DNA of 33,167 nucleotides, from NCBI RefSeq assembly GCF_937859865.1, contig NZ_CALMAT010000137.1, positions 1 through 33,167 of the forward strand, written 5' to 3'. Both the position numbers and the translations under genes were made by a program. Origin of the DNA: an uncultured Mucilaginibacter sp. (GTDB lineage Bacteria > Bacteroidota > Bacteroidia > Sphingobacteriales > Sphingobacteriaceae). Numbering within the stretch: position 1 is the stretch's first letter; each line of letters opens with the position of its first letter. Shown in pieces: positions 8,400 to 33,167 of the stretch. Under the pieces are notes generated by a model that saw only the letters and a list, made by a program, of their open reading frames with translations, searched no databases and had not been told where the DNA came from.

Positions 8400-9518
8400 A
8401 TGCCCGAAAATACCGAAAAACCCGAAAAAGTACACGTTCCCGTTGTAACGCCCGAATCCCTTTCTTTTTTAGAAAAATACATCAACAATTCCTCGCCAAC
8501 CGGTTACGAAGCTGCCGGGCAGCAAATGTGGCTGGAATATTTAAAGCCTTATATTGATGCGCAATACATTGATAATTACGGCACGGCGGTCGGCATCATC
8601 AACCCCGAAGCCGAATACCGGGTGGTGATTGAAGCACATGCCGATGAAATTTCCTGGTACGTCAACTATATCACCAGCGATGGTTTGATTTATGTGATCC
8701 GTAACGGCGGTTCGGACCATCAAATTGCGCCTTCCAAACGCGTAAATATTTACACTGAAAAAGGGGTGGTAAAAGCAGTATTCGGTTGGCCGGCCATCCA
8801 TACTCGCAGCGGCGGCGAAAAAGAAGAAGCGCCAACATTGAAGAATATTTTTCTGGATTGCGGCTGCACAACTAAAGATGAAGTGGAGAAATTAGGCGTG
8901 CATGTAGGTTGTGTCATTACTTATGAAGATGAATTTATGGTGTTGAACGACCGCTACTATGTTGGCCGCGCTTTGGATAACCGTGTCGGTGGTTTTATGA
9001 TTGCCGAAGTTGCCCGCAAGTTGAAAGAAAACAACATCAAACTGCCTTTTGGTTTGTACATTGTAAATGCCGTGCAGGAAGAAATCGGTTTGGCAGGCGC
9101 GGGGATGATTGCCGAATACATCGAGCCGGATGTAGCCATTATCACCGATGTTACGCACGATACGCAAACGCCAATGATCAACAAAAATACACAAGGCGAT
9201 TTGGCTTGCGGCCGCGGCCCGGTTGTTTCTTATGCGCCTGCCGTTCAGCACAACGTTAATAAACTGCTGGTCGAATCCGCAGAAAAAAACAATATTCCGT
9301 TTCAGCGCCAGGCTTCCTCGCGTTCTACCGGCACCGACACCGATGCTTTTGCCTATTCCAACCACGGCGTTCCTTCGGCCTTAATTTCGTTGCCGCTGCG
9401 TTACATGCACACCACAGTAGAAATGGTGCACAAAGAAGACGTGGACAACGTGATCAGCCTGATTTACCAAAGTTTGCTGAACATCCAGGACGGACAGGAT
9501 TTTAAATATTTTAAATAA
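8400..9518 (+). CDS. M42 family metallopeptidase (glutamyl aminopeptidase/endoglucanase-like)
   Basis: A 372-residue cytosolic enzyme with the co-catalytic two-metal site of M42: H80 and D82 in EAHADE, D193 in GRALDNR, E227/E228 in VQEEIG, D250 in IITDVTHD, and H337 in YMHTT. M42 enzymes form large tetrahedral particles that trim N-terminal residues from peptides; some were first named cellulases (CelM). Length and motif order are normal. It probably has its own promoter (TATATTTG at 8354). It is followed by an R25 doublet that can fold into a hairpin between it and the nucleotidyltransferase gene. Confidence 0.93.
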   Translation: MPENTEKPEKVHVPVVTPESLSFLEKYINNSSPTGYEAAGQQMWLEYLKPYIDAQYIDNYGTAVGIINPEAEYRVVIEAHADEISWYVNYITSDGLIYVIRNGGSDHQIAPSKRVNIYTEKGVVKAVFGWPAIHTRSGGEKEEAPTLKNIFLDCGCTTKDEVEKLGVHVGCVITYEDEFMVLNDRYYVGRALDNRVGGFMIAEVARKLKENNIKLPFGLYIVNAVQEEIGLAGAGMIAEYIEPDVAIITDVTHDTQTPMINKNTQGDLACGRGPVVSYAPAVQHNVNKLLVESAEKNNIPFQRQASSRSTGTDTDAFAYSNHGVPSALISLPLRYMHTTVEMVHKEDVDNVISLIYQSLLNIQDGQDFKYFK

Positions 9519-9524
9519 CAACCA

Positions 9525-9575
9525 AACTTTTATGTGGTAAAAACAGTATGATGCTTCTTTTACCACCTAAAAATC
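9525..9575. repeat. Inverted R25 doublet (hairpin)
   Basis: A minus-strand unit of subtype ATACTGT (9525-9549) and a plus-strand unit of subtype ATGCTTC (9551-9575) face head to head with one base between them. GTGGTAAAA...AG.AT pairs with AT.CT...TTTTACCAC over 16 positions with two mismatches and a G-U. It follows the M42 stop by six bases. The two arms carry different head subtypes, so the doublet is not a simple copied palindrome. Confidence 0.88.
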
Positions 9576-9602
9576 ATTATTAAAAAATCAACCCAAAAAA
9601 CA

Positions 9603-10502
9603 ATGAAACCAACCCTTTTAATACTGGCGGCCGGAATGGCCAGCCGTTACGGAAGCATGAAACAAGTGGACGGCTTTGGCCCGAACGGCGAAACCATTAT
9701 TGATTATTCTATTTACGATGCCATCAAAGCGGGCTTCGGTAAAGTTAGTTTTATCATCCGCGAAGAATTTGTGGACAGTTTTAAGTCGAAATTTGAGCCG
9801 AAACTGAACGGTAAGATTGCAACGGAATATGTGTTTCAAACTTTCAACCTGAAACCTTATGGCATTGATAAAGAGATCGAAAGATCAAAACCTTGGGGAA
9901 CGGCACACGCAGTTTTGGAAGCCAGAAACCAGGTACAGGAACCATTTTGCGTGATTAATGCAGATGATTTTTACGGTGCCGAAGCTTATCAAAAAATGGC
10001 GGCTTTTTTAAACGGGGAAGTTACTGACAACCATTTTTCGCTGATGGGTTACCAAATTGATAAAACTTTGTCGGAGAATGGTTCTGTTTCGCGCGGCGTT
10101 TGTAAAGTTGACGAAAACAACAATTTGGTGGAGATTAACGAGCGTTTAAAGGTTTATGAAAAAGACGGCGTAATTGTGTACGAAGAAAACGGTGTGGAAA
10201 CGCCGCTGCACGAAGATCCACGCGCTTCCATGAATTTCTGGGGGTTTTCTCCGGCTGTTTATGATTTGTTGGAACCGATGTTCAAAGCGTTTGTAGAAGC
10301 TAATGCTGCCGATCCGAAATCCGAATTTTTGTTGCCAAAAGCAGCCGATGAACTGATTAAATCTGGTAAAGCATCTTTCAAAGTGGTTCCAACTTCGGCA
10401 CAATGGTTTGGCGTAACTTACAAAGAAGACAAACCGGTTGTACAACAAAAAATATCAGAACTGGTGGCCAACGGAACTTATCCAAGCAATTTGTGGGGAT
10501 AA
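9603..10502 (+). CDS. Sugar-phosphate nucleotidyltransferase-like protein
   Basis: A 299-residue protein of the NTP_transferase fold. The nucleotide-binding start LAAGMASRYGSMKQ (residues 8-21) matches the G-x-G-T-R signature in its relaxed form, and VINADDFYGAEAYQ (about 119-132) is the metal-binding strand. Such proteins transfer a nucleotidyl group to a sugar-1-phosphate; in this subgroup a partner sugar kinase is common but none is next to it here. Length is typical and the start has no competitor. The gene ends with the best R25-derived terminator in the window. Confidence 0.85.
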   Translation: MKPTLLILAAGMASRYGSMKQVDGFGPNGETIIDYSIYDAIKAGFGKVSFIIREEFVDSFKSKFEPKLNGKIATEYVFQTFNLKPYGIDKEIERSKPWGTAHAVLEARNQVQEPFCVINADDFYGAEAYQKMAAFLNGEVTDNHFSLMGYQIDKTLSENGSVSRGVCKVDENNNLVEINERLKVYEKDGVIVYEENGVETPLHEDPRASMNFWGFSPAVYDLLEPMFKAFVEANAADPKSEFLLPKAADELIKSGKASFKVVPTSAQWFGVTYKEDKPVVQQKISELVANGTYPSNLWG

Positions 10503-10548
10503 CTTCACCGCAATCTTCTCCTTAAAGAGGAAGTAAAAGTTCAGTATA

Positions 10549-10604
10549 GAAATTAAGCCGGTAAAAGAAGTATCAACAAATGCTTCTTTTACCGGCATTT
10601 TTTT
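10549..10604 (+). terminator. R25 doublet forming a strong terminator
   Basis: Minus-strand unit 10549-10573 (ATACTTC subtype) and plus-strand unit 10580-10604 (ATGCTTC subtype). GCCGGTAAAAGAAGTAT pairs with ATGCTTCTTTTACCGGC over all 17 positions (one G-U) around CAACAA, followed by ATTTTTTT. This is a textbook intrinsic terminator built from two repeat units, placed after the nucleotidyltransferase gene. Confidence 0.85.
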
Positions 10605-10647
10605 GGCCTCAACCTAAATCTCAATCAAAAGGTCATCGCTATTGCCT

Positions 10648-13741: not shown

Positions 13742-13750
13742 GTTTGGTTA

Positions 13751-13780
13751 ATACTGTTTTTATCGGCATAAAAACAGTAT
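13751..13780. repeat. Palindromic R25 doublet in the M1 peptidase leader
   Basis: ATACTGTTTTTAT and ATAAAAACAGTAT pair perfectly over 13 positions around CGGC, so two units of the ATACTGT subtype share one central hairpin. The arm closest to the gene ends ten bases before the start codon at 13741, placing a stable stem next to the translation start. Confidence 0.9.
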
Positions 13781-13874
13781 CTGGCTAAAGTAACATTACG
13801 AGAGAAGTTGTGCAAGCTGGAACAGCAATTTTACAGGTTTTGCTTCGAGGTTTGTTTAGGTTGATTGATTTAAC

Positions 13875-14268: not shown

Positions 14269-15012
14269 CTAAATCCCCAAAACCTGCTTCAACTTAACAT
14301 AACCTGCTTTGCTGACCGGAATTTTTGCACCAGATTTCAAAATCAAAATATGCGTTTCTTTTTCGTAAGGATCAATCCGCGTGATCTGCTCAACCCGAAC
14401 GATGTACGAGCGGTGGACACGCGTAAACAAAGCCGGGTCCAAAATCTGCTCAAAAAAACTCATGGTTTTGTTTTTGAGGAAAGCGCCGCCAGCCGTATGG
14501 ATGTTGACGTAATCGTCCGCCGCTTCCAAATAAATCACTTCCTGAACGGGGATGACTTTAATTTTTGTGCCTGTTTTTACCACAATACGGTCGTGCTGCG
14601 CAGGCGAACTGGCCGCAGTTTCCAGCAAAGCACTGGTTTGTTCTTGTTTTTTAGGTTGATTTTCCAGGAACTTATCAATCGCTTTGTTAAAACGTTCTTT
14701 GCTGAAAGGCTTCAGTAAATAATCAACGGCGTGCGTTTCAAAAGCTTTCAATGCGTATTCATCAAAAGCCGTGGTAAAAATAACGGCAGGCGCGTGGTCA
14801 ACCAATTCCAGCATTTCAAAACCGTTTATTTTTGGCATTTGCACGTCCAGAAAAATTAAATCGGGCTTGTGCTGCATAATTGCTTTTACGCCTTCAAAAC
14901 CGTCGCCGCATTCCTGCGCAACCTGCAACTGCGGAAAATGCTGCAGATATTCCAGCACAATAGAACGTGCCAGCGGCTCATCATCAATAACCAATACTGT
15001 TTTTACCGGCAT
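14269..15012 (-). CDS. LytTR-family response regulator
   Basis: A 247-residue regulator. Receiver domain 1-120 has acidic pocket D10/D11, phospho-acceptor D56 (DLIFLDVQMP) and K101 (DYLLKP). A LytTR DNA-binding domain fills about 140-245 (VIYLEAADDYVNIHT, FTRVHRSYIV). It is the output partner of the histidine kinase encoded three bases upstream and should control genes by binding direct repeats near promoters. The first seven residues and the start codon are encoded by an R25 unit (14994-15018 overlaps the start), which is unusual: the unit forms the first beta strand MPVKTVLV. A further R25 unit lies upstream of the kinase. Confidence 0.93.
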   Translation of the reverse strand: MPVKTVLVIDDEPLARSIVLEYLQHFPQLQVAQECGDGFEGVKAIMQHKPDLIFLDVQMPKINGFEMLELVDHAPAVIFTTAFDEYALKAFETHAVDYLLKPFSKERFNKAIDKFLENQPKKQEQTSALLETAASSPAQHDRIVVKTGTKIKVIPVQEVIYLEAADDYVNIHTAGGAFLKNKTMSFFEQILDPALFTRVHRSYIVRVEQITRIDPYEKETHILILKSGAKIPVSKAGYVKLKQVLGI

Positions 15013-15018
15013 AAATTA
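14994..15018 (+). repeat. R25 unit overlapping the regulator start codon
   Basis: Reads ATACTGTTTTTACCGGC then ATAAATTA on the plus strand; the gene runs on the minus strand, so the complement supplies ATGCCGGTAAAAACAGTAT, which encodes MPVKTV(L). The hairpin loop CCGGCA contains the start codon, so the small stem would sequester it in the messenger. Confidence 0.9.
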
Positions 15019-16083
15019 AGTGTTTGTTTGAAGTATTTGATTTTGTTCGGTTAACGATTGCGGAATTTTAAGCGTGATGCTGAAAAGGTTGTTCTTGGTT
15101 TCGATCTCGATCAGATCATGCCGTGCAAAAAGCAGATACAAACGCCGTTTTACGCCGCTTAAACCAAAACCTGTCCCGCGGTTGGGCGAAGCGGTTTCCG
15201 GATCGAAAGGGTTGCTGATGGTAATTTGCAATTGCCGGTCAACCACCAACGCATTCAGGCCGATGGTTACATCGCCAATCGTATCGTACAAACCAAATTT
15301 AATGGCGTTTTCTACCAAAGGCTGCAGCAACATCGGTGGAATTAGCATGGCATCCGCCGCATCATTGTGGCGCAAAACGGTGGAAAGGCGATGGCCGAAA
15401 CGCACTTTTTCGATATCCAAATACAGTTGCAAATGCTGCAGTTCGTGTTGCAACGGCACCCATTGCTGTTCTTCTTTCAGCGTTCCGCGTAAAAAATCAG
15501 AAAGCTGGTGAATCATTTTTCGTGCTTCGTCCGGCTTAAAACCAATCAGCGCACTGATAGAATTGAGGCTGTTGAACAAAAAGTGCGGCTGCAATTGCTG
15601 GCGCAACTTGTACAGTTCGGCATCGCGGGCCAAAGTTTCGGCGGCCAGTTGCCGGTTTTCGTTGGCTTTCTGGTCCTTCAGCATGTAACGCAAGGCACTC
15701 AGCATTGCCATACAACCGATAATCAGGAACGAAATGGAAAACCGGATGGGCAGGGATTGTATTAAAAAAGCTTTGTAGGCCGGATCCGGAATCAACTGCG
15801 GCAACAGCCATTTGCAGGCGATCAACCAAAACAAACTCAGCACCAAACACAACACCAAAATAAAAACGGAACGGCCTTTTTCGGGCTGGTAATACCGTAA
15901 GTTATTGCTGATGAGCAAACAAGCGCCGGCCAGCAAAAGGTTGGTAACGCCGGCATCCGTAGTTGCAATTTTCCAGCTAAAACCAAAATCATTAAGCAGG
16001 TAACTTTGCAGCACAAACCAGGTAATTAACCCCGTGCCTACCACGGTGCGAAACTTGTTGAACAAAGAGGCCGGCGTTTCCAA
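15016..16083 (-). CDS. LytS-type sensor histidine kinase
   Basis: A 355-residue membrane kinase. Four or more hydrophobic helices cover residues 10-135 with no extracellular sensor domain, then the His_kinase domain with phospho-acceptor H167 in LQPHFLFNSL, N-box N259 (LLQPLVENA) and G-box GTGFGL (303-308). It would phosphorylate the LytTR regulator encoded just after it. No ATG is available near the front; a TTG at 16083 is the first possible start after an in-frame TAA (16116-16114), and that TAA lies inside an R25 unit. It belongs to a three-gene operon with the LiaF-like gene upstream, so envelope stress is a plausible signal. Confidence 0.9.
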   Translation of the reverse strand: METPASLFNKFRTVVGTGLITWFVLQSYLLNDFGFSWKIATTDAGVTNLLLAGACLLISNNLRYYQPEKGRSVFILVLCLVLSLFWLIACKWLLPQLIPDPAYKAFLIQSLPIRFSISFLIIGCMAMLSALRYMLKDQKANENRQLAAETLARDAELYKLRQQLQPHFLFNSLNSISALIGFKPDEARKMIHQLSDFLRGTLKEEQQWVPLQHELQHLQLYLDIEKVRFGHRLSTVLRHNDAADAMLIPPMLLQPLVENAIKFGLYDTIGDVTIGLNALVVDRQLQITISNPFDPETASPNRGTGFGLSGVKRRLYLLFARHDLIEIETKNNLFSITLKIPQSLTEQNQILQTNT

Positions 16084-16104
16084 AAATTGTTTTATTTGAT
16101 GTTG

Positions 16105-16129
16105 ATACTGTTTTTACCGGTATAAAATT
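16105..16129 (+). repeat. R25 unit, ATACTGT subtype, with full tail
   Basis: Reads ATACTGTTTTTACCGGT then ATAAAATTGGTG. It occupies the 50-base gap between the LiaF-like gene and the kinase gene and contains the stop codon that limits the kinase frame upstream. Confidence 0.88.
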
Positions 16130-16133
16130 GGTG

Positions 16134-16910
16134 CTAAAAACTTTTAATGTCTATACCGCCAAAAATAGAAATGCCTTTTAAAACCAAAACTTTTCCGCTG
16201 TTGGCCACATCAGCGTGCGGAATACGTTTATCGTTTACGCCGCCAAAAACCTGGGCAATATCGGCAACTACCTGCCAGTGCGGCGGAACGATCAGTTTGG
16301 TGCCGCCGAAAAGCTGTACCATATCTACCACAACTTGCCCGTTGATATTGGCGTGGCTGAAATCAATATCCGTTCCGCCAAAAATATTCACGATCTCGCC
16401 GCCTTTAAAATTTTTAGAAAACACGTTTTTTTTCGCGCTGCTGAAGATGGAAAAAGTGTTCAAAAAATCTTCGTTTGATTCTGGTTGTGCAGCGGTATGA
16501 CTGGTTTCTTTTGCCGGGTTTGGTTCCGGGTTTAAAAAATCATCGTTGGCAAATGCTTCTTTTACCGTAGTATTTTTAGTGTTGAAATCGTAATTTCTGC
16601 GGAAGATCATCCACAAGCCAACCGCAATAATAATGACCGGCCAGCCAAAATGAAATACATCTACCCCGGAAAACATTTTTTGGAGCAGGAACAGGCCGCC
16701 AACTAAAATTACAATCAGCCAGGATTGGTTGTTCGGGTTGTTGGCACGTTTTACCAAACCAACGATAATCAAAATCATTGGCCAGCTAAACAGCCAGTTG
16801 GGAAAAAAGTAAAAATCGAACTGTTTGAGCAACAAAACCAGGCCGATGCCCATGAGGACAAAACCTGCAATGGCGCGGCCGGATTGTTTTGTATGGTGGA
16901 GGTTGTTCAT
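16134..16910 (-). CDS. LiaF-like membrane protein
   Basis: 258 residues from the preferred ATG at 16910 (MNNLHHTKQSGRAI); an ATG 24 bases upstream is also in frame. Residues 12-105 hold four membrane helices in the LiaI/LiaF pattern (GFVLMGIGLVLLLKQ, FSWPMILIIVGLV). After a low-complexity linker, residues 165-258 repeat FGG motifs (NIFGGTDIDFSHANI, QLFGGTKLIVP, QVFGGVND, SIFGGIDIKSF), the beta-helical C-terminal domain of LiaF proteins. In Firmicutes LiaF restrains the LiaS kinase; here the gene leads an operon with a LytS/LytTR pair, so it may restrain that kinase. The linker contains an R25 copy at 16553. Confidence 0.82.
   Translation of the reverse strand: MNNLHHTKQSGRAIAGFVLMGIGLVLLLKQFDFYFFPNWLFSWPMILIIVGLVKRANNPNNQSWLIVILVGGLFLLQKMFSGVDVFHFGWPVIIIAVGLWMIFRRNYDFNTKNTTVKEAFANDDFLNPEPNPAKETSHTAAQPESNEDFLNTFSIFSSAKKNVFSKNFKGGEIVNIFGGTDIDFSHANINGQVVVDMVQLFGGTKLIVPPHWQVVADIAQVFGGVNDKRIPHADVANSGKVLVLKGISIFGGIDIKSF
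16553..16577 (+). repeat. R25 unit inside the LiaF-like gene
   Basis: Plus strand reads ATGCTTCTTTTACCGTAG then TATTTTTAGTG. On the coding strand it encodes KNTTVKEA (residues 112-119), exactly at the boundary between the membrane part and the linker. Head and first arm are perfect; the second arm is altered. Confidence 0.7.
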
Positions 16911-23733: not shown

Positions 23734-24825
23734 ATGAATGATAATATATCCAATTATTTTTTAAACTTCCAATCTTCTACACTTTACAATTTCCCCAAAA
23801 ACTTCTACTTTCCTGCCGAATGGGAAAAGCACGAAGCAACCTGGTTAAGCTGGCCGCACAAAGAAGCTTCCTGGCCATCAAAAATCGGGATGATTTACCG
23901 GCAATATGCGGAGTTTATCAAAATTGTGGCTGAAGGGGAATTGGTTAGAATTAATGTTGCAGATGAACAAATGGAAGCGTTTGCCGAACAGCAATTGCTG
24001 GCCGTCGGCGCCGATTTATCCAAAGTTCAATTCTTTTATTTCCCGACCAACGATGCCTGGTGCCGCGATCATGGCCCGGCGTTTCTGGTAAACCGCGATG
24101 CTTCTTTTACCCCTAAAAAATTGGTGTTGGATTGGGGCTACAACGCCTGGGGCGGCAAATATCCGCCGTTTGAGTTGGATGATGTGATCCCCACAAAAAT
24201 TGCGGAACATTTTAACTTGCCGGTTTATCACCCGGGAATTGTGATGGAAGGCGGTTCGGTAGAATTTAACGGAAAAGGAACAGTGCTGACGACGACCGCT
24301 TGTCTCCTCAACCCAAACCGAAACCCACACCTCAACCAAAACCAGATTGAAGATTACCTGAAAAAATATTACGGCGTGCAGCAGGTTTTATGGCTGGGCG
24401 ATGGCATTGTGGGCGACGACACCGATGGACACATTGATGACATCACGCGTTTTGTAAACGAAGATACCGTGGTTACCGTGATGGAGGAAAACCCGGAAGA
24501 TGAAAATTATACCATTTTGCAGGAAAACCTGGAGAAGTTAAAGAGGATGAAATTGTTGGATGGCCGTCCGCTAAACATTATCGAATTGCCGATGCCTGCT
24601 CCCGTAATTTGGGAAGAGACGCGGTTACCGGCCAGTTACGCCAATTTTTATATTGCAAACAAAGCAGTGATCGTTCCCACTTACCGCGATAAAAACGACG
24701 AAAAAGCCTTGCAGATTTTACAGCAATGCTTTCCCGAACGTAAAGTTGTTGGTATAGATTCTACCGATATTATCTGGGGCTTGGGCAGTTTTCATTGTTT
24801 AAGCCAACAGGAACCGGCGGTGTAA
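23734..24825 (+). CDS. aguA: Agmatine deiminase
   Basis: A 363-residue enzyme of the guanidine-modifying superfamily. Landmarks are WPHKEASWP (40-48), WCRDHGPAFLVN (109-120), YNAWGGKYPPFELDD, EGGS (172-175), GDDTDGHIDD with H233, and the nucleophile C355 in GSFHCLSQQ. It converts agmatine to N-carbamoylputrescine, which AguB then turns into putrescine. Residues 122-130 (DASFTPKKL) are encoded by an R25 unit and lie in the loop before the LDWGYNAWGG strand, where relatives differ in length. A palindromic R25 doublet follows the stop codon. Confidence 0.93.
   Translation: MNDNISNYFLNFQSSTLYNFPKNFYFPAEWEKHEATWLSWPHKEASWPSKIGMIYRQYAEFIKIVAEGELVRINVADEQMEAFAEQQLLAVGADLSKVQFFYFPTNDAWCRDHGPAFLVNRDASFTPKKLVLDWGYNAWGGKYPPFELDDVIPTKIAEHFNLPVYHPGIVMEGGSVEFNGKGTVLTTTACLLNPNRNPHLNQNQIEDYLKKYYGVQQVLWLGDGIVGDDTDGHIDDITRFVNEDTVVTVMEENPEDENYTILQENLEKLKRMKLLDGRPLNIIELPMPAPVIWEETRLPASYANFYIANKAVIVPTYRDKNDEKALQILQQCFPERKVVGIDSTDIIWGLGSFHCLSQQEPAV
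24098..24122 (+). repeat. R25 unit inside aguA
   Basis: Reads ATGCTTCTTTTACCCC then TAAAAAATTGGTG: head, stem and complete tail. It is in frame on the coding strand and encodes (D)ASFTPKKLV. It is the best preserved coding copy in the window. Confidence 0.85.
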
Positions 24826-24830
24826 TTCAT

Positions 24831-24862
24831 CATACTGTTTTTATGCCGGTAAAAACAGTATG
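24831..24862. terminator. Palindromic R25 doublet after aguA
   Basis: CATACTGTTTTTA and TAAAAACAGTATG pair perfectly over 13 positions around TGCCGG. It lies five bases past the aguA stop codon. It has the same design as the doublet at 13751 and the coding one at 31197. It could end or stabilise the aguA transcript. Confidence 0.85.
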
Positions 24863-24931
24863 GGTTAAACTGATGAAAGATTAGTTATTAGGCAATTTGA
24901 TGATTTGGCAAAGCACTCCAAAAAAAATTAA

Positions 24932-26042: not shown

Positions 26043-26205
26043 GAGCCTGTTTAAATTTATATCATAAAATTTTACAATGCTTCTTTTATGCCTATAAATT
26101 TGGTGTGCCCGGATATTTTAAGGGTACAAAAACCACAAAAAGACAATGATTTTTAGGTGGTAAAAGAAGCATGGCAAATAAATTTAACAAAATTTAAACA
26201 GGCTC
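26043..26205. mobile_element. MITE-like element, 163 bp, with TAA target duplication
   Basis: Ends are GAGCCTGTTTAAATTT and its inverse AAATTTAAACAGGCTC, flanked by TAA on both sides (26040-26042 and 26206-26208). Each arm contains an R25 unit (26077-26101 plus, 26148-26172 minus). No coding capacity. The right arm is about 90% identical over 89 bases to the element at 33079. GAGCC ends with T-N-A three-base duplications resemble some IS5-family groups; that assignment is an inference. Confidence 0.85.
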
Positions 26206-27542
26206 TAAATACTTGGCTTGGCTATTCTTTTCCGCCACTTAATCAACTGCCAAACCACTTCTGCAGAAAGCAAAGCGGCAATAGCAAAAACAGCGGGCAG
26301 CCAATTATTGCCATCGGAAGAAAAAGCACCGCCCAAAGCCGTAATGTAAACGCCGAAAGGCAGCAAGGCCATCAAACCTAAACCGTAAACATTAAGCGGG
26401 ATTTTAAAGGGGCGAGGCATGTCGGGCAGTTTGATGCGGAAGATGATCAGCGTAACAAACTCCAAAAATAAAGCGGCGCCGTAAAGGGTTACGTCAATAA
26501 TGAGCAGGTCGGTAAAAGTCCACAAAACCATAAAACTAATTACCACGGAACAAACCAAAATGGAAACGTAAGGTGTTTTGTATTTGGGGTGAAGTTTATT
26601 GATTTTTTTGGGAAGCAGGCCATCATCCGCCATCACTTTTGGCACCCGGGAAACCGAAAGCAGCACGGCCGAATATAAACCCAACGCGCTTGCCATCCCG
26701 CCAAAAGAAAGCAGTGCGCCCAGCCAGCGGCCACCAATTATAAGCCCTACAATCGGGAAGCCTTCTTTTTCCAACTTTGCCGGATCAATATTGGTTTGCT
26801 GCGCGATAAATACCGTTAGAAAATACACCGAAAAAATCAGGATAAAAGCAGTTAACACCGAAATGAGGTAAGTGCGCACAGGCTTGTTCACTTCTTCTGC
26901 GTAAGTGGTTACATTGTCCCAGCCGATGAAATTCCACATGACGGTATAAAGCGCCAAACCCAAAGGGGCAAAGCCAATCCCTTTTAAAGATAAATGCGGA
27001 AAGGTAAAACTGCCGGCGTGCTGACTGAAAGCGATGTAAAAAAGGATGATAAAAGGAGTAAGCACCAACGCACCGAGGAAAACAGAGATTTTGCCAACCG
27101 GCACAATGCCCAAAATATTTAAACCGGCAGACGACCAGATGATAAACAAACAAACCGGGATTTTATAAGCGGCAACTGCGGGGAAAAAGAAAGCGGCATA
27201 TTCGGTGAACAGCACGGGATAAATGGCCAAATCTACAAACGTGTAAAGCCAAGTCCACCAGCCTTCGTACAAAGCCCAACGCAGGCCCAATGCTTTTTTT
27301 ACCCACTGATAATAGCCGCCCGTAACCGGCATCATGCTGTTAAGTTCGAGCACGGTAAAAATGGTTGGGATATCCCACAAAATAGGTGTGATGATGAGCA
27401 GCAGCAACGCGCCGTTTTTGCCGGCATAGCCCAACAAAGGTTCCAAACCATAAGGCCCGCCGGAAACGGTGAGAAAAATAATGGCAATCAAAGGCAGTAT
27501 GCCTAACTTTTTTAGGTTAGAACGAGGGGAGGGCGATATCAT
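26205..27542 (-). CDS. APC-superfamily amino-acid permease
   Basis: A 445-residue transporter with about twelve membrane helices. The first helix has SGGPYGLEPLLGYAG, the unwound glycine-rich segment of the LeuT/APC fold, and helix 2-3 has MPVTGGYYQWVKKALG, typical of this subgroup. Substrate is likely an amino acid or polyamine, but cannot be fixed; proximity to the agu genes makes a polyamine tempting, without proof. The stop codon TAG is formed by the junction of the MITE and its target duplication; before insertion the frame would have ended at the same residue with TAA. Confidence 0.88.
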   Translation of the reverse strand: MISPSPRSNLKKLGILPLIAIIFLTVSGGPYGLEPLLGYAGKNGALLLLIITPILWDIPTIFTVLELNSMMPVTGGYYQWVKKALGLRWALYEGWWTWLYTFVDLAIYPVLFTEYAAFFFPAVAAYKIPVCLFIIWSSAGLNILGIVPVGKISVFLGALVLTPFIILFYIAFSQHAGSFTFPHLSLKGIGFAPLGLALYTVMWNFIGWDNVTTYAEEVNKPVRTYLISVLTAFILIFSVYFLTVFIAQQTNIDPAKLEKEGFPIVGLIIGGRWLGALLSFGGMASALGLYSAVLLSVSRVPKVMADDGLLPKKINKLHPKYKTPYVSILVCSVVISFMVLWTFTDLLIIDVTLYGAALFLEFVTLIIFRIKLPDMPRPFKIPLNVYGLGLMALLPFGVYITALGGAFSSDGNNWLPAVFAIAALLSAEVVWQLIKWRKRIAKPSI

Positions 27543-27777: not shown

Positions 27778-30700
27778 ATGTTAAAACAATTACAATTTTT
27801 TATGCTGATGCTGTTTTTAGCAGCAGTTTTTCCGAATAAGGTATTTGCCGGGCTTTTGCTTACCCATAGCTTTGTAAGTTCTACAGCCTTAAATATAAAT
27901 TGTGGTAGTACGATCAGCGCATTAGTTCGTGTTGGCAATAGTTTGGGTGATATTGAAAATGATTGTATGCCAATAAATGCCCAGACGATTACTTTTAACC
28001 CATTTCCTGCTAAAACCTATGGTAACGCAAACTTTAATGCGGGGGCTGCTGCTTCTTCCGGTCTGCCTGTTGCCTATACCAGTAGCAACACAGCAGTAGC
28101 AACAGTTGATGCCGCAGGCAACGTTCATATCCTTTCAGCCGGAACAACTGATATCACAGCTTCACAAGGTGGTGATGCTAATTATAGTGCTGCAACACCT
28201 GTTCAGCAAACTTTAACCGTAAACCCGGCTGCCTTAACCATTACTGCAGATAACCAAAGCAAAACTTATGGAAATGCAAATCCGGTACTGACGGTAAGTT
28301 ACAGTGGTTTTGTTAATGGCGATACACAGGCCAGTTTAACCACGCCGCCTACGGTTAGCACTACGGCGACAACAAATTCGGCAGTTGGTGCTTATTCCAT
28401 CACCGCATCTGGGGCAACATCTGCTAATTATACCATTGCTTATGTAAACGGAACCTTGTCCATTTATCCCGGTATCCAAACTATTTCTTTTAATGTTGCG
28501 CCTAAAACTTATGGCGATCCTGATTTTACGCTGAGTGCAAGTGCTTCCTCCGGTTTGCCGGTAATTTACAGTAGCAGCAATACGGCCGTGGCAACGGTGG
28601 ACGCACAAGGAAACGTTCATATTGTTTCTGCCGGAATTGTTACCATTACGGCTTCGCAACCTGGCAATGGTAATTATATCGCCACAACCAATATCAATCA
28701 ACAATTAACAATTAACAAAGCCGCCCTTACTGTAACGGCAGATAGTGTAAGAAAAGCATACGGAGCAGTTAATCCTGCATTAACAGTAAGTTACAACGGT
28801 TTTGTTAATGGTGATACCCAAGCCAGTTTAATCACGCAACCTACTGTTAGCACTATGGCAACTACAACATCAGCAGTGGGTACATACCCAATTACAGTAG
28901 CTGGTGCTGCAAGTGCGAATTATAACATCACTTATCAGTCGAGCACATTAACTGTTGCAAAAAACAATCAAACGATAACATTTGCTTCCATACCTGCCAA
29001 AACTTATGGTGATGCAGATTTTAATTTATCCGCCTCTGCGTCTTCCGGTTCGGCTGTTACTTATAGCAGCAGCGACCCAACAATAGCAACGGTAGATGCT
29101 GCGGGAAGGGTTCATATCCTTTCGGCCGGAAAAGCTATTATTACCGCTTCGCAAAGCGGAAGCAGCAATTACCAGGCAGCGGCAGACGTGCAGCAAACGC
29201 TAACCGTTAACCAAGCACCTTTAACCCTTACAGCCGACAATGAGACAATAACTTACGGTTCTGCCAGCCCTGCATTAACCATAAGTTACAGTGGTTTTGT
29301 TAACGGTGATACGCCTGCCAGTTTAAGTACCCCTGCTGTAGTTTCTACAACCGCAACAGCTACTTCTGCAGCAGGTACTTATCCGATCACAGTTGCAGGT
29401 GCCGCAAGTGCCAATTACGCCATCACTTATCAAGCTGGCACGTTTACTGTTTTACCAAGCGCACAAAGCATCACATTTCCTGCTTTAACAGCAAAAAACT
29501 ATGGAGACTCTGATTTCAATGTCAATACATCAAGTACCAATACTTCGCTCCCGATAACTTATACCAGCAGCAACCCGGCAGTGGCAACGGTAGATGCGGC
29601 GGGAAAGGTGCATATCCTTTCTGCCGGAACAGCAGTCATCACAGCTTCGCAACCAGCAAACGGCAATTATCAGGCAGCAGCAGACGTACAGCAAACGTTG
29701 ACCGTAAATCCGGCCGCCTTAACCATCACAGCCGATAACAAAACCAAAACACTCGGAACCGCCAACCCTGCATTGACCATAACTTATAGTGGTTTTGTGA
29801 ATGGAGATGATGCAACAAGCCTCAGCACACAACCTACCGTAAGCACCACTGCTTCCGCCACTTCGGCTGCCGGTATTTATGCCATTACCGTAAGCAGTGC
29901 GTCATCAGCTAATTATAACATTACTTATGTAGCCGGTACTTTTAGCGTAACCAACCCAACTATCAGCAGTGTAAGTTTGGCACAGGCAACTATTTTTGAA
30001 AACCAGCCTGCAGGAACATTGACAGGAACATTAAATGCTACTTCGCCTGATCCAAACGCAACTTATACTTATAGTTTAATCACAGGTAACGGAAGCACCG
30101 ATAATTCCTCGTTCAGTATCCAGGGAAATAAAGTGGTTACTGCCAAAAGCCTGGACTTCGAGCAAAAAGCAATCTACAGTATTTTGGTGCGGGCAACCAA
30201 CCAGTACGGCTTGTACCTGGACCAGATTATCACCATCAATTTATCTGATGTAAACGAAGCACCAACGCTTGCCGCTATTGCCAATCAGCAAATCTGTTCT
30301 ACAACTGCTGCACAAACCATCGCTTTAAACGGTATTTCCCCAGGCCCGGAAACGGCACAAAGCACTACGTTAAGTGTCAGTTCAAATAATCCAGGTTTGT
30401 TTAGCAGTTTAAATATTTCTTCCGTTTCGGCTGGCACAGCTACTTTATCCTATCAGTTGGCCGGAACAGGAACTGCAGCAGTTAACGTAACCGTGAAAGA
30501 CAACGGCGGGACGGCAAACGGCGGAACAGATACCTTTAGCCAAACGTTTACCATAAGAGCAAACGAACTTCCGGTTGCATTAATCAATGCCGATAAAGGG
30601 CTGCAAATTTCCAAAGGCGAAACCGTAACGCTAACGGCAAGTGGTGGCGGCACGTACAGTTGGAACACCTCGCCAAACGTGGGCGGTACAAGCAGTTCGG

Positions 30701-31126: not shown

Positions 31127-32062
31127 ATGAAAAAATCAACACCAGCCCTGATTGTAAAACAGGTAAAACATATTTTAAAAGCAACCTTGCTGCTTGCTGT
31201 TTTTATGCAGGTAAAAACAGTATCGGCGCAGCTAAACCCTTATTCCGCCATGTACTATCAAAACCAGTACTTAAACAACCCTGCAATGGCCGGGCTGGAC
31301 AAAGGGCTAAACGTAAACCTGGGCATACGCCAGCAATGGGCAACCATGCCGGGCAGCCCGCGCACGCAAGTGGCAACTTTGGATTATAACGCCGGTAAAA
31401 ATGTTGGACTTGGGCTAAACGTAAGTAACGACCAAACCGGTTTACTGCGCCAAACGCGCGCCCTGGCCACTTATGCTTATCATGTAAAATTAGGAAGCAA
31501 CAACCAGCAATTAAACTTTGGCCTTTCTGGTGGGATAACCAGCGTGCGGATTGATTATAACAGTGTAAACGGCGACCAGGGCGATGCGCAGGTTGACCGT
31601 TACAACCAACAGCGTGCTTACCTGGACGGCGATTTTGGCGCATCCTACACCAGCAACAATTTAACAGTTCAGGGCGCTATCCCAAACCTCAACCATTTTT
31701 TCAGGAACAATACCGCTATTTTGGGTATAGACCGCTCTGTTTTTTTTACGGCCGTTAGTTATAAGTTTGGCCTTGAAAATGTGCTGGACGGATCTACCAT
31801 CGAACCTAAAATTGTTTACCGCAGGGTAGAAGGTTACAAAGATATTTTTGATGCTGGCCTAAACTTTACTTTGAAAAACGAATTGCTGCACTTTTACACC
31901 ATGTACCATAGCAGCCAAAGTGAAAGTTTTGGTTTTGGCGCCAACATCAGCAAAAATGTACAACTGATGCTTTTTTATACCACCGAAACCTCGCCTTTAA
32001 AAACTTATACCAACGGCAGTTTTGAATTGGGGCTGAAACTGCACTTGTACAAAGAAAGATAA
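31127..32062 (+). CDS. PorP/SprF-family type IX secretion partner
   Basis: 311 residues from the ATG at 31127; an upstream TTG at 31091 is less likely. The signal peptide runs to about A34 (VSA before QLNP). The mature part begins with YQNQYLNNPAMAG, the usual start of PorP/SprF proteins, followed by an outer-membrane barrel pattern (LGIRQQW, GLGLNVSNDQTG, HVKLGSNNQQLNFGLSGG) and a final strand ELGLKLHLYKER. Family members bind type IX cargo with CHU_C domains at the surface, matching the gene just upstream. Residues 24-32 (AVFMQVKTV) are encoded by an R25 palindrome, which puts polar and charged residues just before the cleavage site. Confidence 0.9.
   Translation: MKKSTPALIVKQVKHILKATLLLAVFMQVKTVSAQLNPYSAMYYQNQYLNNPAMAGLDKGLNVNLGIRQQWATMPGSPRTQVATLDYNAGKNVGLGLNVSNDQTGLLRQTRALATYAYHVKLGSNNQQLNFGLSGGITSVRIDYNSVNGDQGDAQVDRYNQQRAYLDGDFGASYTSNNLTVQGAIPNLNHFFRNNTAILGIDRSVFFTAVSYKFGLENVLDGSTIEPKIVYRRVEGYKDIFDAGLNFTLKNELLHFYTMYHSSQSESFGFGANISKNVQLMLFYTTETSPLKTYTNGSFELGLKLHLYKER
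31197..31220. repeat. Palindromic R25 doublet inside the PorP-like signal peptide
   Basis: CTGTTTTTA and TAAAAACAG pair perfectly around TGCAGG and the right side continues as TATC, so the minus-strand unit ATACTGTTTTTACCTGC is complete. Apart from one loop base it matches the non-coding doublet at 24831 across this core. Confidence 0.85.
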
Positions 32063-32836: not shown

Positions 32837-33078
32837 GTAAAATTGTATGTGAGTTTATAATCAACAATGATAAACAAATTATCAAATCAAAAACTGCCTG
32901 GATGATAAAATTGTTTTTTTTAGGTCAACATAGATAAACAAGCATTGTTTCAATTTAAACAATTAAAAGGTTGTAATAATTGCAGCGTTTACTTGTATGT
33001 CTTTTTTTAAGTTTTAAGTATCAATTATAATATCTAACAGCAGGGTTAAAAAAAGTCAACTTGCTATTTGTTTTTTTA
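32837..33078. other. AT-rich upstream region of the winged-helix gene
   Basis: No gene or R25 unit. The stretch is AT-rich with no palindrome that I can support as an operator, and leads into a MITE copy preceded by TTA. Confidence 0.5.
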
Positions 33079-33167
33079 GAGCCTGTTTAAATTTTGTTAG
33101 CCTTATTTGCCATGCTTCTTTTACCATATAAAATTCATTGTCTTTTTGTGGTTTTTGTGCCCTTAAA
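33079..33167 (+). mobile_element. MITE-like element, left part (cut by window end)
   Basis: Starts GAGCCTGTTTAAATTTTGTTA after TTA (33076-33078) and contains an R25 unit at 33112-33136 (ATGCTTCTTTTACCATA then TAAAATTC). Over its 89 visible bases it differs from the inverted right arm of the element at 26043 at about eight positions. The other end lies outside the window. Confidence 0.85.

Follow-up and report, generated by a model that had tools for sequence, protein, structure and literature searches.

The analysed window, a stretch of 33,167 nucleotides from an uncultured Mucilaginibacter species, contains a two-component operon in which a gene for a LytS-type histidine kinase is followed by a gene for a LytTR response regulator. 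A short repeated motif spans the junction between the two genes, and another unit of it precedes the kinase gene:

14269..15012, minus strand: LytTR response regulator, with a receiver domain (PF00072) and a LytTR domain (PF04397)
14994..15005, minus strand: 12-nt constant core of the motif in its AC form, TAAAAACAGTAT, regulator codons 3-7, over ancestral codons 1-5
14994..15023, minus strand: 30-nt motif unit, ACACTTAATTTATGCCGGTAAAAACAGTAT, spanning the kinase stop and the regulator start
15010..15012, minus strand: regulator start codon ATG, within the variable part of the unit
15016..15018, minus strand: kinase stop codon TAA, within the unit, with the regulator ATG 3 nt further on
15019..15057, minus strand: C-terminal tail of the kinase, 13 codons (SLTEQNQILQTNT), confined to the motif-bearing clade
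15016..16083, minus strand: LytS-type histidine kinase (PF06580), with a TTG start kept in the three motif-bearing species
16103..16134, minus strand: further motif unit, between the stop codon of a LiaF-like gene and the kinase start

The minus strand at the junction reads ACACTTAATTTATGCCGGTAAAAACAGTATTGG, and the regulator open reading frame (15012..14269) encodes a protein with the N-terminus MPVKTVLVIDDEP. The codons in frame directly 5' of the regulator ATG are TTT and then the stop codon TAA, which makes the ATG at 15012 the sole plausible start of the regulator. The sequence and the reading of the open reading frames bear out the proposal of a first-pass annotation that the start codon and first codons of the regulator lie within a repeated motif. 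The annotation placed the repeat at 14994-15018. The overlap with the 5' end of the regulator gene stands, whereas 30 nt (14994-15023) is the better length for the unit, which also includes the kinase stop codon. The small stem that the unit was thought to form is not significant: the predicted fold of 14994-15023 has a minimum free energy of -1.2 kcal/mol and a z-score of 0.37, no better than shuffled sequences.

The motif was aligned from 441 cores in 433 kb of the genome to which the window belongs, and the statistics of its genomic context rest on the same 433 kb. The aligned cores follow roughly the pattern ACACYRA-W4-(N5-7)-GTAAAA(GA/AC)AG[CT]AT. The constant part is the nearly invariant 12-nt core TAAAA(GA/AC)AG[CT]AT; because the core was also used as the seed of the search, its precise positions are in part given by construction, and the conservation tests are independent of that. 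Leftwards of the core are 5-7 variable bases, a tract of A or T, and ACACC, and this left part of the motif is weaker. The loop varies freely (TGCCGG, GGTGG, TAGGG, and others), and loops of the TGCC type contain ATG, so that a start codon can fall in the loop. Core positions 6-7 have two near-exclusive forms, GA in 292 and AC in 88 of the 380 distinct units that match the strict pattern, mixed forms being rarer. No long-range covariation or correlation between distant positions was found among these 380 units.

The repeat is much more frequent than chance would give: the sequence GGTAAAARMAGYAT has 1,377 copies in the genome and its reversed control none. The looser pattern TAAAARMAGYAT has 3,710 copies in the same genome (20 for the control), 3,246 in Mucilaginibacter arboris, and 2,655 in a lichen MAG, and between 15 and 69 copies in each of five related genomes. 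The 13-mer GTAAAAGAAGCAT is present in 905, 664, and 394 copies in the three motif-bearing genomes, compared with 0-4 in each of 298 additional family genomes. The over-representation is extreme and lineage-specific, as it is for the DNA uptake sequences called DUS and USS. Comparable dispersed "dialect" motifs were sought in other Mucilaginibacter, and the candidates were rejected: the top over-represented 10-mers inspected in loci of 12-20 kb are tandem arrays or hairpin REPs. The REP-like hairpin repeats of these other species, GTAGAGACGCGATACTTCGCGTCT, GTCATTGCGAG, and GAAACAAGTTC, differ from the motif, and still other Mucilaginibacter have tandem arrays of 7-9 nt. The hairpin repeats lie in the following loci of other Mucilaginibacter:

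L083:5986-14551, L062:6768-11640, L105:4175-15724, and L052:10818-15424

The unit is present at the kinase/regulator junction in all three species of the GTDB genus, which are that of the window, M. arboris, and the lichen MAG. Among 78 orthologous loci outside this clade, 77 lack GGTAAAARMAGYAT and one has a single copy. The sequence at this place is missing from all 78 orthologues, confirming the repeat as clade-specific; repeat-free orthologues with identical nucleotides here, which the first-pass annotation had named as evidence against its proposal, were not found among them. Orthologues without the unit have a regulator N-terminus of the MKRVLI type (M-K-R/Q-V/A-L-I in the outgroup Mucilaginibacter examined). 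In the same outgroup species the kinase ends with KIPQ and usually one more residue, and the kinase stop and regulator start most often overlap as ATGA. The three motif-bearing species share a homologous 13-residue kinase tail, followed by TAA-TTT-ATG-C(C/A)G-GTA-AAA-A(C/A)A-GTA-TTR. Their net gain in the junction alignment is 49 nt, a length counted by hand. The ungapped alignment pairs the regulator codons GTA AAA ACA GTA TTG with the ancestral ATG AAA CRN GTA TTR, indicating that the core sits on pre-existing codons. An ancestral-type 12-mer from M. agri, TGAAACAAGTAT, has three mismatches to the core, and the M. arboris core at this junction contains one mismatch (TAAAAAAAGTAT). Insertion of a whole unit would leave extra residues in the regulator; just two were added, which places the gain upstream, where it comprises the kinase tail together with the new ATG.

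The probable course of events is that, before the three known species diverged, the core arose over regulator codons 1-5 by the change of an ATGAAACAAGTAT-like sequence to GTAAAAACAGTAT, which would have erased the old regulator ATG. The 49-nt gain directly upstream would then have provided a new ATG, two codons 5' of the old one and within the motif's variable part, as well as the 13-residue kinase tail and TAA-TTT-ATG instead of the ATGA overlap. This gain could itself be an insertion that brought the left half of the unit. The regulator now starts six bases upstream of the ancestral ATG, and the former overlap has become a 3-nt gap. Shine-Dalgarno sequences are reported to be generally missing in Bacteroidota (PMC6847099), and coupling via the kinase stop is therefore plausible both before and after the change. 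Translational coupling was probably kept across TAA-TTT-ATG, which still fits termination-reinitiation, so that the effect on coupling to the kinase suggested by the first-pass annotation does not appear to be large. Apart from the 13-residue kinase tail and the two extra regulator residues, the change probably had little functional consequence.

Conservation of the motif was compared between species in alignable orthologous DNA of approximately 80% identity. The core is wholly identical in 167 of 339 comparisons, which are non-independent because both directions were counted, versus 11 of 54 for permuted motifs. Most fixed core positions reach an identity of 0.93-0.97 and the W tract one of 0.90-0.92, and immediately outside the core identity falls to about 0.6-0.7; the footprint thus comprises the core and the W tract. 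At sites within open reading frames, third codon positions are 95.2% identical between species in cores versus 62.8% in flanks, indicating constraint or drive at the DNA level. Of the 26 orthologues in M. arboris that are not identical, 16 are set apart by a single core substitution. Gaps of 6 nt or more occur in 5 of these 26 and in 3 of the 12 non-identical orthologues in the lichen MAG, and no clean 30-nt insertion was found in the alignable orthologous DNA of either comparison; intergenic alignments are often too poor to exclude insertion there. Exact cores (397) outnumber cores with one mismatch (173). A neutrally decaying mobile repeat should give many more near-misses, and the excess of exact cores argues against such a repeat. 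As in DUS and USS, the sites are conserved at the DNA level above background and change by point mutation. One copy that lies within a gene was compared with 1xkn:

24098..24127, minus strand: motif unit within the coding sequence for agmatine deiminase, shared by all three species

The residues encoded by this copy align to 1xkn without an inserted segment. Another unit, at 31194-31223, encodes FMQVKTVSA at the apparent end of the signal peptide of a PorP/SprF-like protein, and M. arboris has a one-mismatch form in the same place.

Strict units are located between open reading frames or over their ends in 65% of cases, even though a loose caller assigns 88% of the 433 kb sampled to open reading frames. 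The remainder are in open reading frames on both strands and avoid the frames that would yield a stop or CFFY. The spacing is approximately 1 kb (1.4-1.6 kb for merged sites). The orientation is near balanced, with a weak strand bias (56:45, 67:89, and 60:71 on long contigs) and a modest lean to one strand in some contigs of the genome (33:20 in C18 and 28:16 in C46). Inverted pairs at most 20 nt apart are about six times as frequent as expected, and their loops are more complementary than shuffled ones. Two such pairs follow genes in the window:

9520..9580, no strand assigned: inverted motif pair behind a gene that ends at 9518, showing compensating base changes across species
10544..10609, no strand assigned: inverted motif pair that folds as a terminator-like hairpin behind a gene that ends at 10502, conserved in all three species

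The fold z-scores are -7.0 for the pair at 10544-10609 and -4.1 for that at 9520-9580, and the pairing is kept across species. The lack of a strong orientation bias and the terminator-like inverted pairs are also features of DUS and USS.

The window contains further arrangements of repeats. Two units, at 13749-13782 and 24830-24863, are fully palindromic with a 12-6-12 organization, ATACTGTTTTTA-N6-TAAAAACAGTAT; one is positioned 8 nt 5' of a start codon and the other just past a stop codon, and M. arboris has similar palindromes. The 28-nt copies at 9551-9578 and 26145-26172 are identical. A 93-nt inverted repeat has arms at 26117-26209 and 33075-33167 that are 92% complementary, and the second arm stops exactly at the contig end. 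Positions 28072-29942 include four internal repeats of about 495 nt, 65-78% alike in DNA, in an open reading frame of 1,101 amino acids. In M. arboris, an intergenic stretch (L132:16221-16750) holds approximately ten units repeated in tandem every 55 nt.

The motif is very probably maintained at the DNA level rather than being a mobile repeat, as which the first-pass annotation described it. A small mobile repeat of the REP, MITE, or SDR type that spread in the genus and entered the junction of kinase and regulator would account for the clade-specific 49-nt gain, the enrichment outside open reading frames, the tandem array of M. arboris, and the identical 28-nt copies. Nevertheless, this origin is improbable, because the core covers ancestral codons 1-5 and contains no additional residues, differences between species are mostly single substitutions and not clean insertions, synonymous positions are conserved, and exact copies outnumber one-mismatch copies. 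Furthermore, distant positions are uncorrelated, whereas copied subfamilies would correlate. A REP system with a Y1/RAYT transposase was rejected, since many genomes without the motif also have Y1 genes and the contig with the genome's own copy has just three cores; the distribution of RAYT does not match that of the motif. A mobile origin is thus rejected for the copies within genes, including that in the agmatine deiminase gene, which lacks an inserted 30-nt segment, and some intergenic copies may be insertions. An RNA element with a conserved stem was discarded on the basis of the missing covariation and the fold at the junction.

The maintained motif could instead be recognized by a DNA-binding protein specific to the genus, such as a nucleoid, chromosome-segregation, or global regulator protein, with selection on binding and no role in uptake. 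Conservation of in-gene copies at the DNA level, the resemblance of a core with a spaced A/T tract and of the full 12-6-12 palindromes to a protein site, and the failure to find a type IV pilus (T4P) ATPase all agree with this explanation. It is, however, unlikely: some 3,700 sites gained in one genus require very strong, new selection, the sites occur in both orientations and in genes on both strands, and their abundance, spacing, inverted terminator pairs, and divergent flanks jointly fit uptake sequences. A polar replication or repair motif such as Chi or KOPS might be as abundant and genus-wide and lean modestly to one strand in some contigs. It is highly improbable here, because strong co-orientation over long chromosomal stretches is absent, the motif is enriched in inverted pairs, and known Chi sites are much shorter than its unit.

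The reading favored here is that the genus-wide motif works like a DNA uptake sequence (probability about 0.55). It is likened to DUS and USS, whose decisive trait is preferential uptake, and not classed with them. Copies would arise mainly via substitution or recombination and would be driven up or kept by preferential uptake of incoming DNA that carries the motif. ComEC and DprA, which are near-universal, were found in the motif-bearing genomes. No T2SSE/T4P ATPase, an enzyme that is encoded in several genera of the family, scored above the Pfam cut-off in the three motif genomes. A single uptake signal with two core forms, here GA and AC, would be unusual, which counts against the uptake reading, as does the location of 65% of units outside open reading frames. 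More tentatively, the motif may represent a recent uptake-sequence system of one Bacteroidota genus that operates without the canonical type IV pilus ATPase and whose drive remodelled gene junctions, such as that of the kinase and the regulator, where the motif would have overwritten the old start codon. Uptake sequences are known from Pasteurellaceae and Neisseriaceae (PMC7811141, PMC1939737), and in the literature searched none was found for Bacteroidota, nor any paper that links uptake sequences with Bacteroidota and competence. If the uptake reading is correct, the motif would be a third, independent, and apparently recent origin of uptake sequences, and the motif-free sister species would allow the origin, drive, and receptor of such sequences to be studied. 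The junction also shows that, in a two-component operon, a genome-wide motif can come to contain both the stop codon of one gene and the start codon of the next.

The DUS of Neisseria is 10-12 bp long, occurs once per approximately 1.1-1.5 kb, and is in the majority of cases outside genes (PMC2397512). Its conservation is 97% versus 85%, its flanks are more divergent, its near-misses are one base off, and its close inverted pairs are terminators (PMC2397512). DUS are also reported to be missing from newly acquired DNA. The Mucilaginibacter motif is similar in its spacing, conserved core with divergent flanks, one-base near-misses, inverted-pair terminators, and location mostly outside genes. 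It differs in its sequence and phylum, its two core forms, the A/T tract beside the core, and the T4P ATPase that was not found. The 29-bp USS of Haemophilus influenzae, aAAGTGCGGTnrwttttnnnnnnrwtttw, has a strong core and spaced T tracts, lacks orientation bias, is inside open reading frames in 65% of cases, and has a suggested point-mutational origin (PMC1939737). The motif shares with it a core with a spaced A/T tract, the absence of orientation bias, copies within genes, and a suggested origin by point mutation; its sequence is different, and about 35% of its units are inside open reading frames. Like REP/REPIN and other small dispersed repeats, the motif is short, abundant, mostly intergenic, and at times in inverted pairs. 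Unlike REP/REPIN, which are held to spread as copies, it turns over by substitution in alignable DNA, has no subfamilies, and has no transposase of matching distribution. Rickettsia palindromic elements are repeats of a similar scale that are in frame within genes and are held to insert, whereas the in-gene sites of the motif that were tested, at the kinase/regulator junction and in the agmatine deiminase gene, are without inserted residues.
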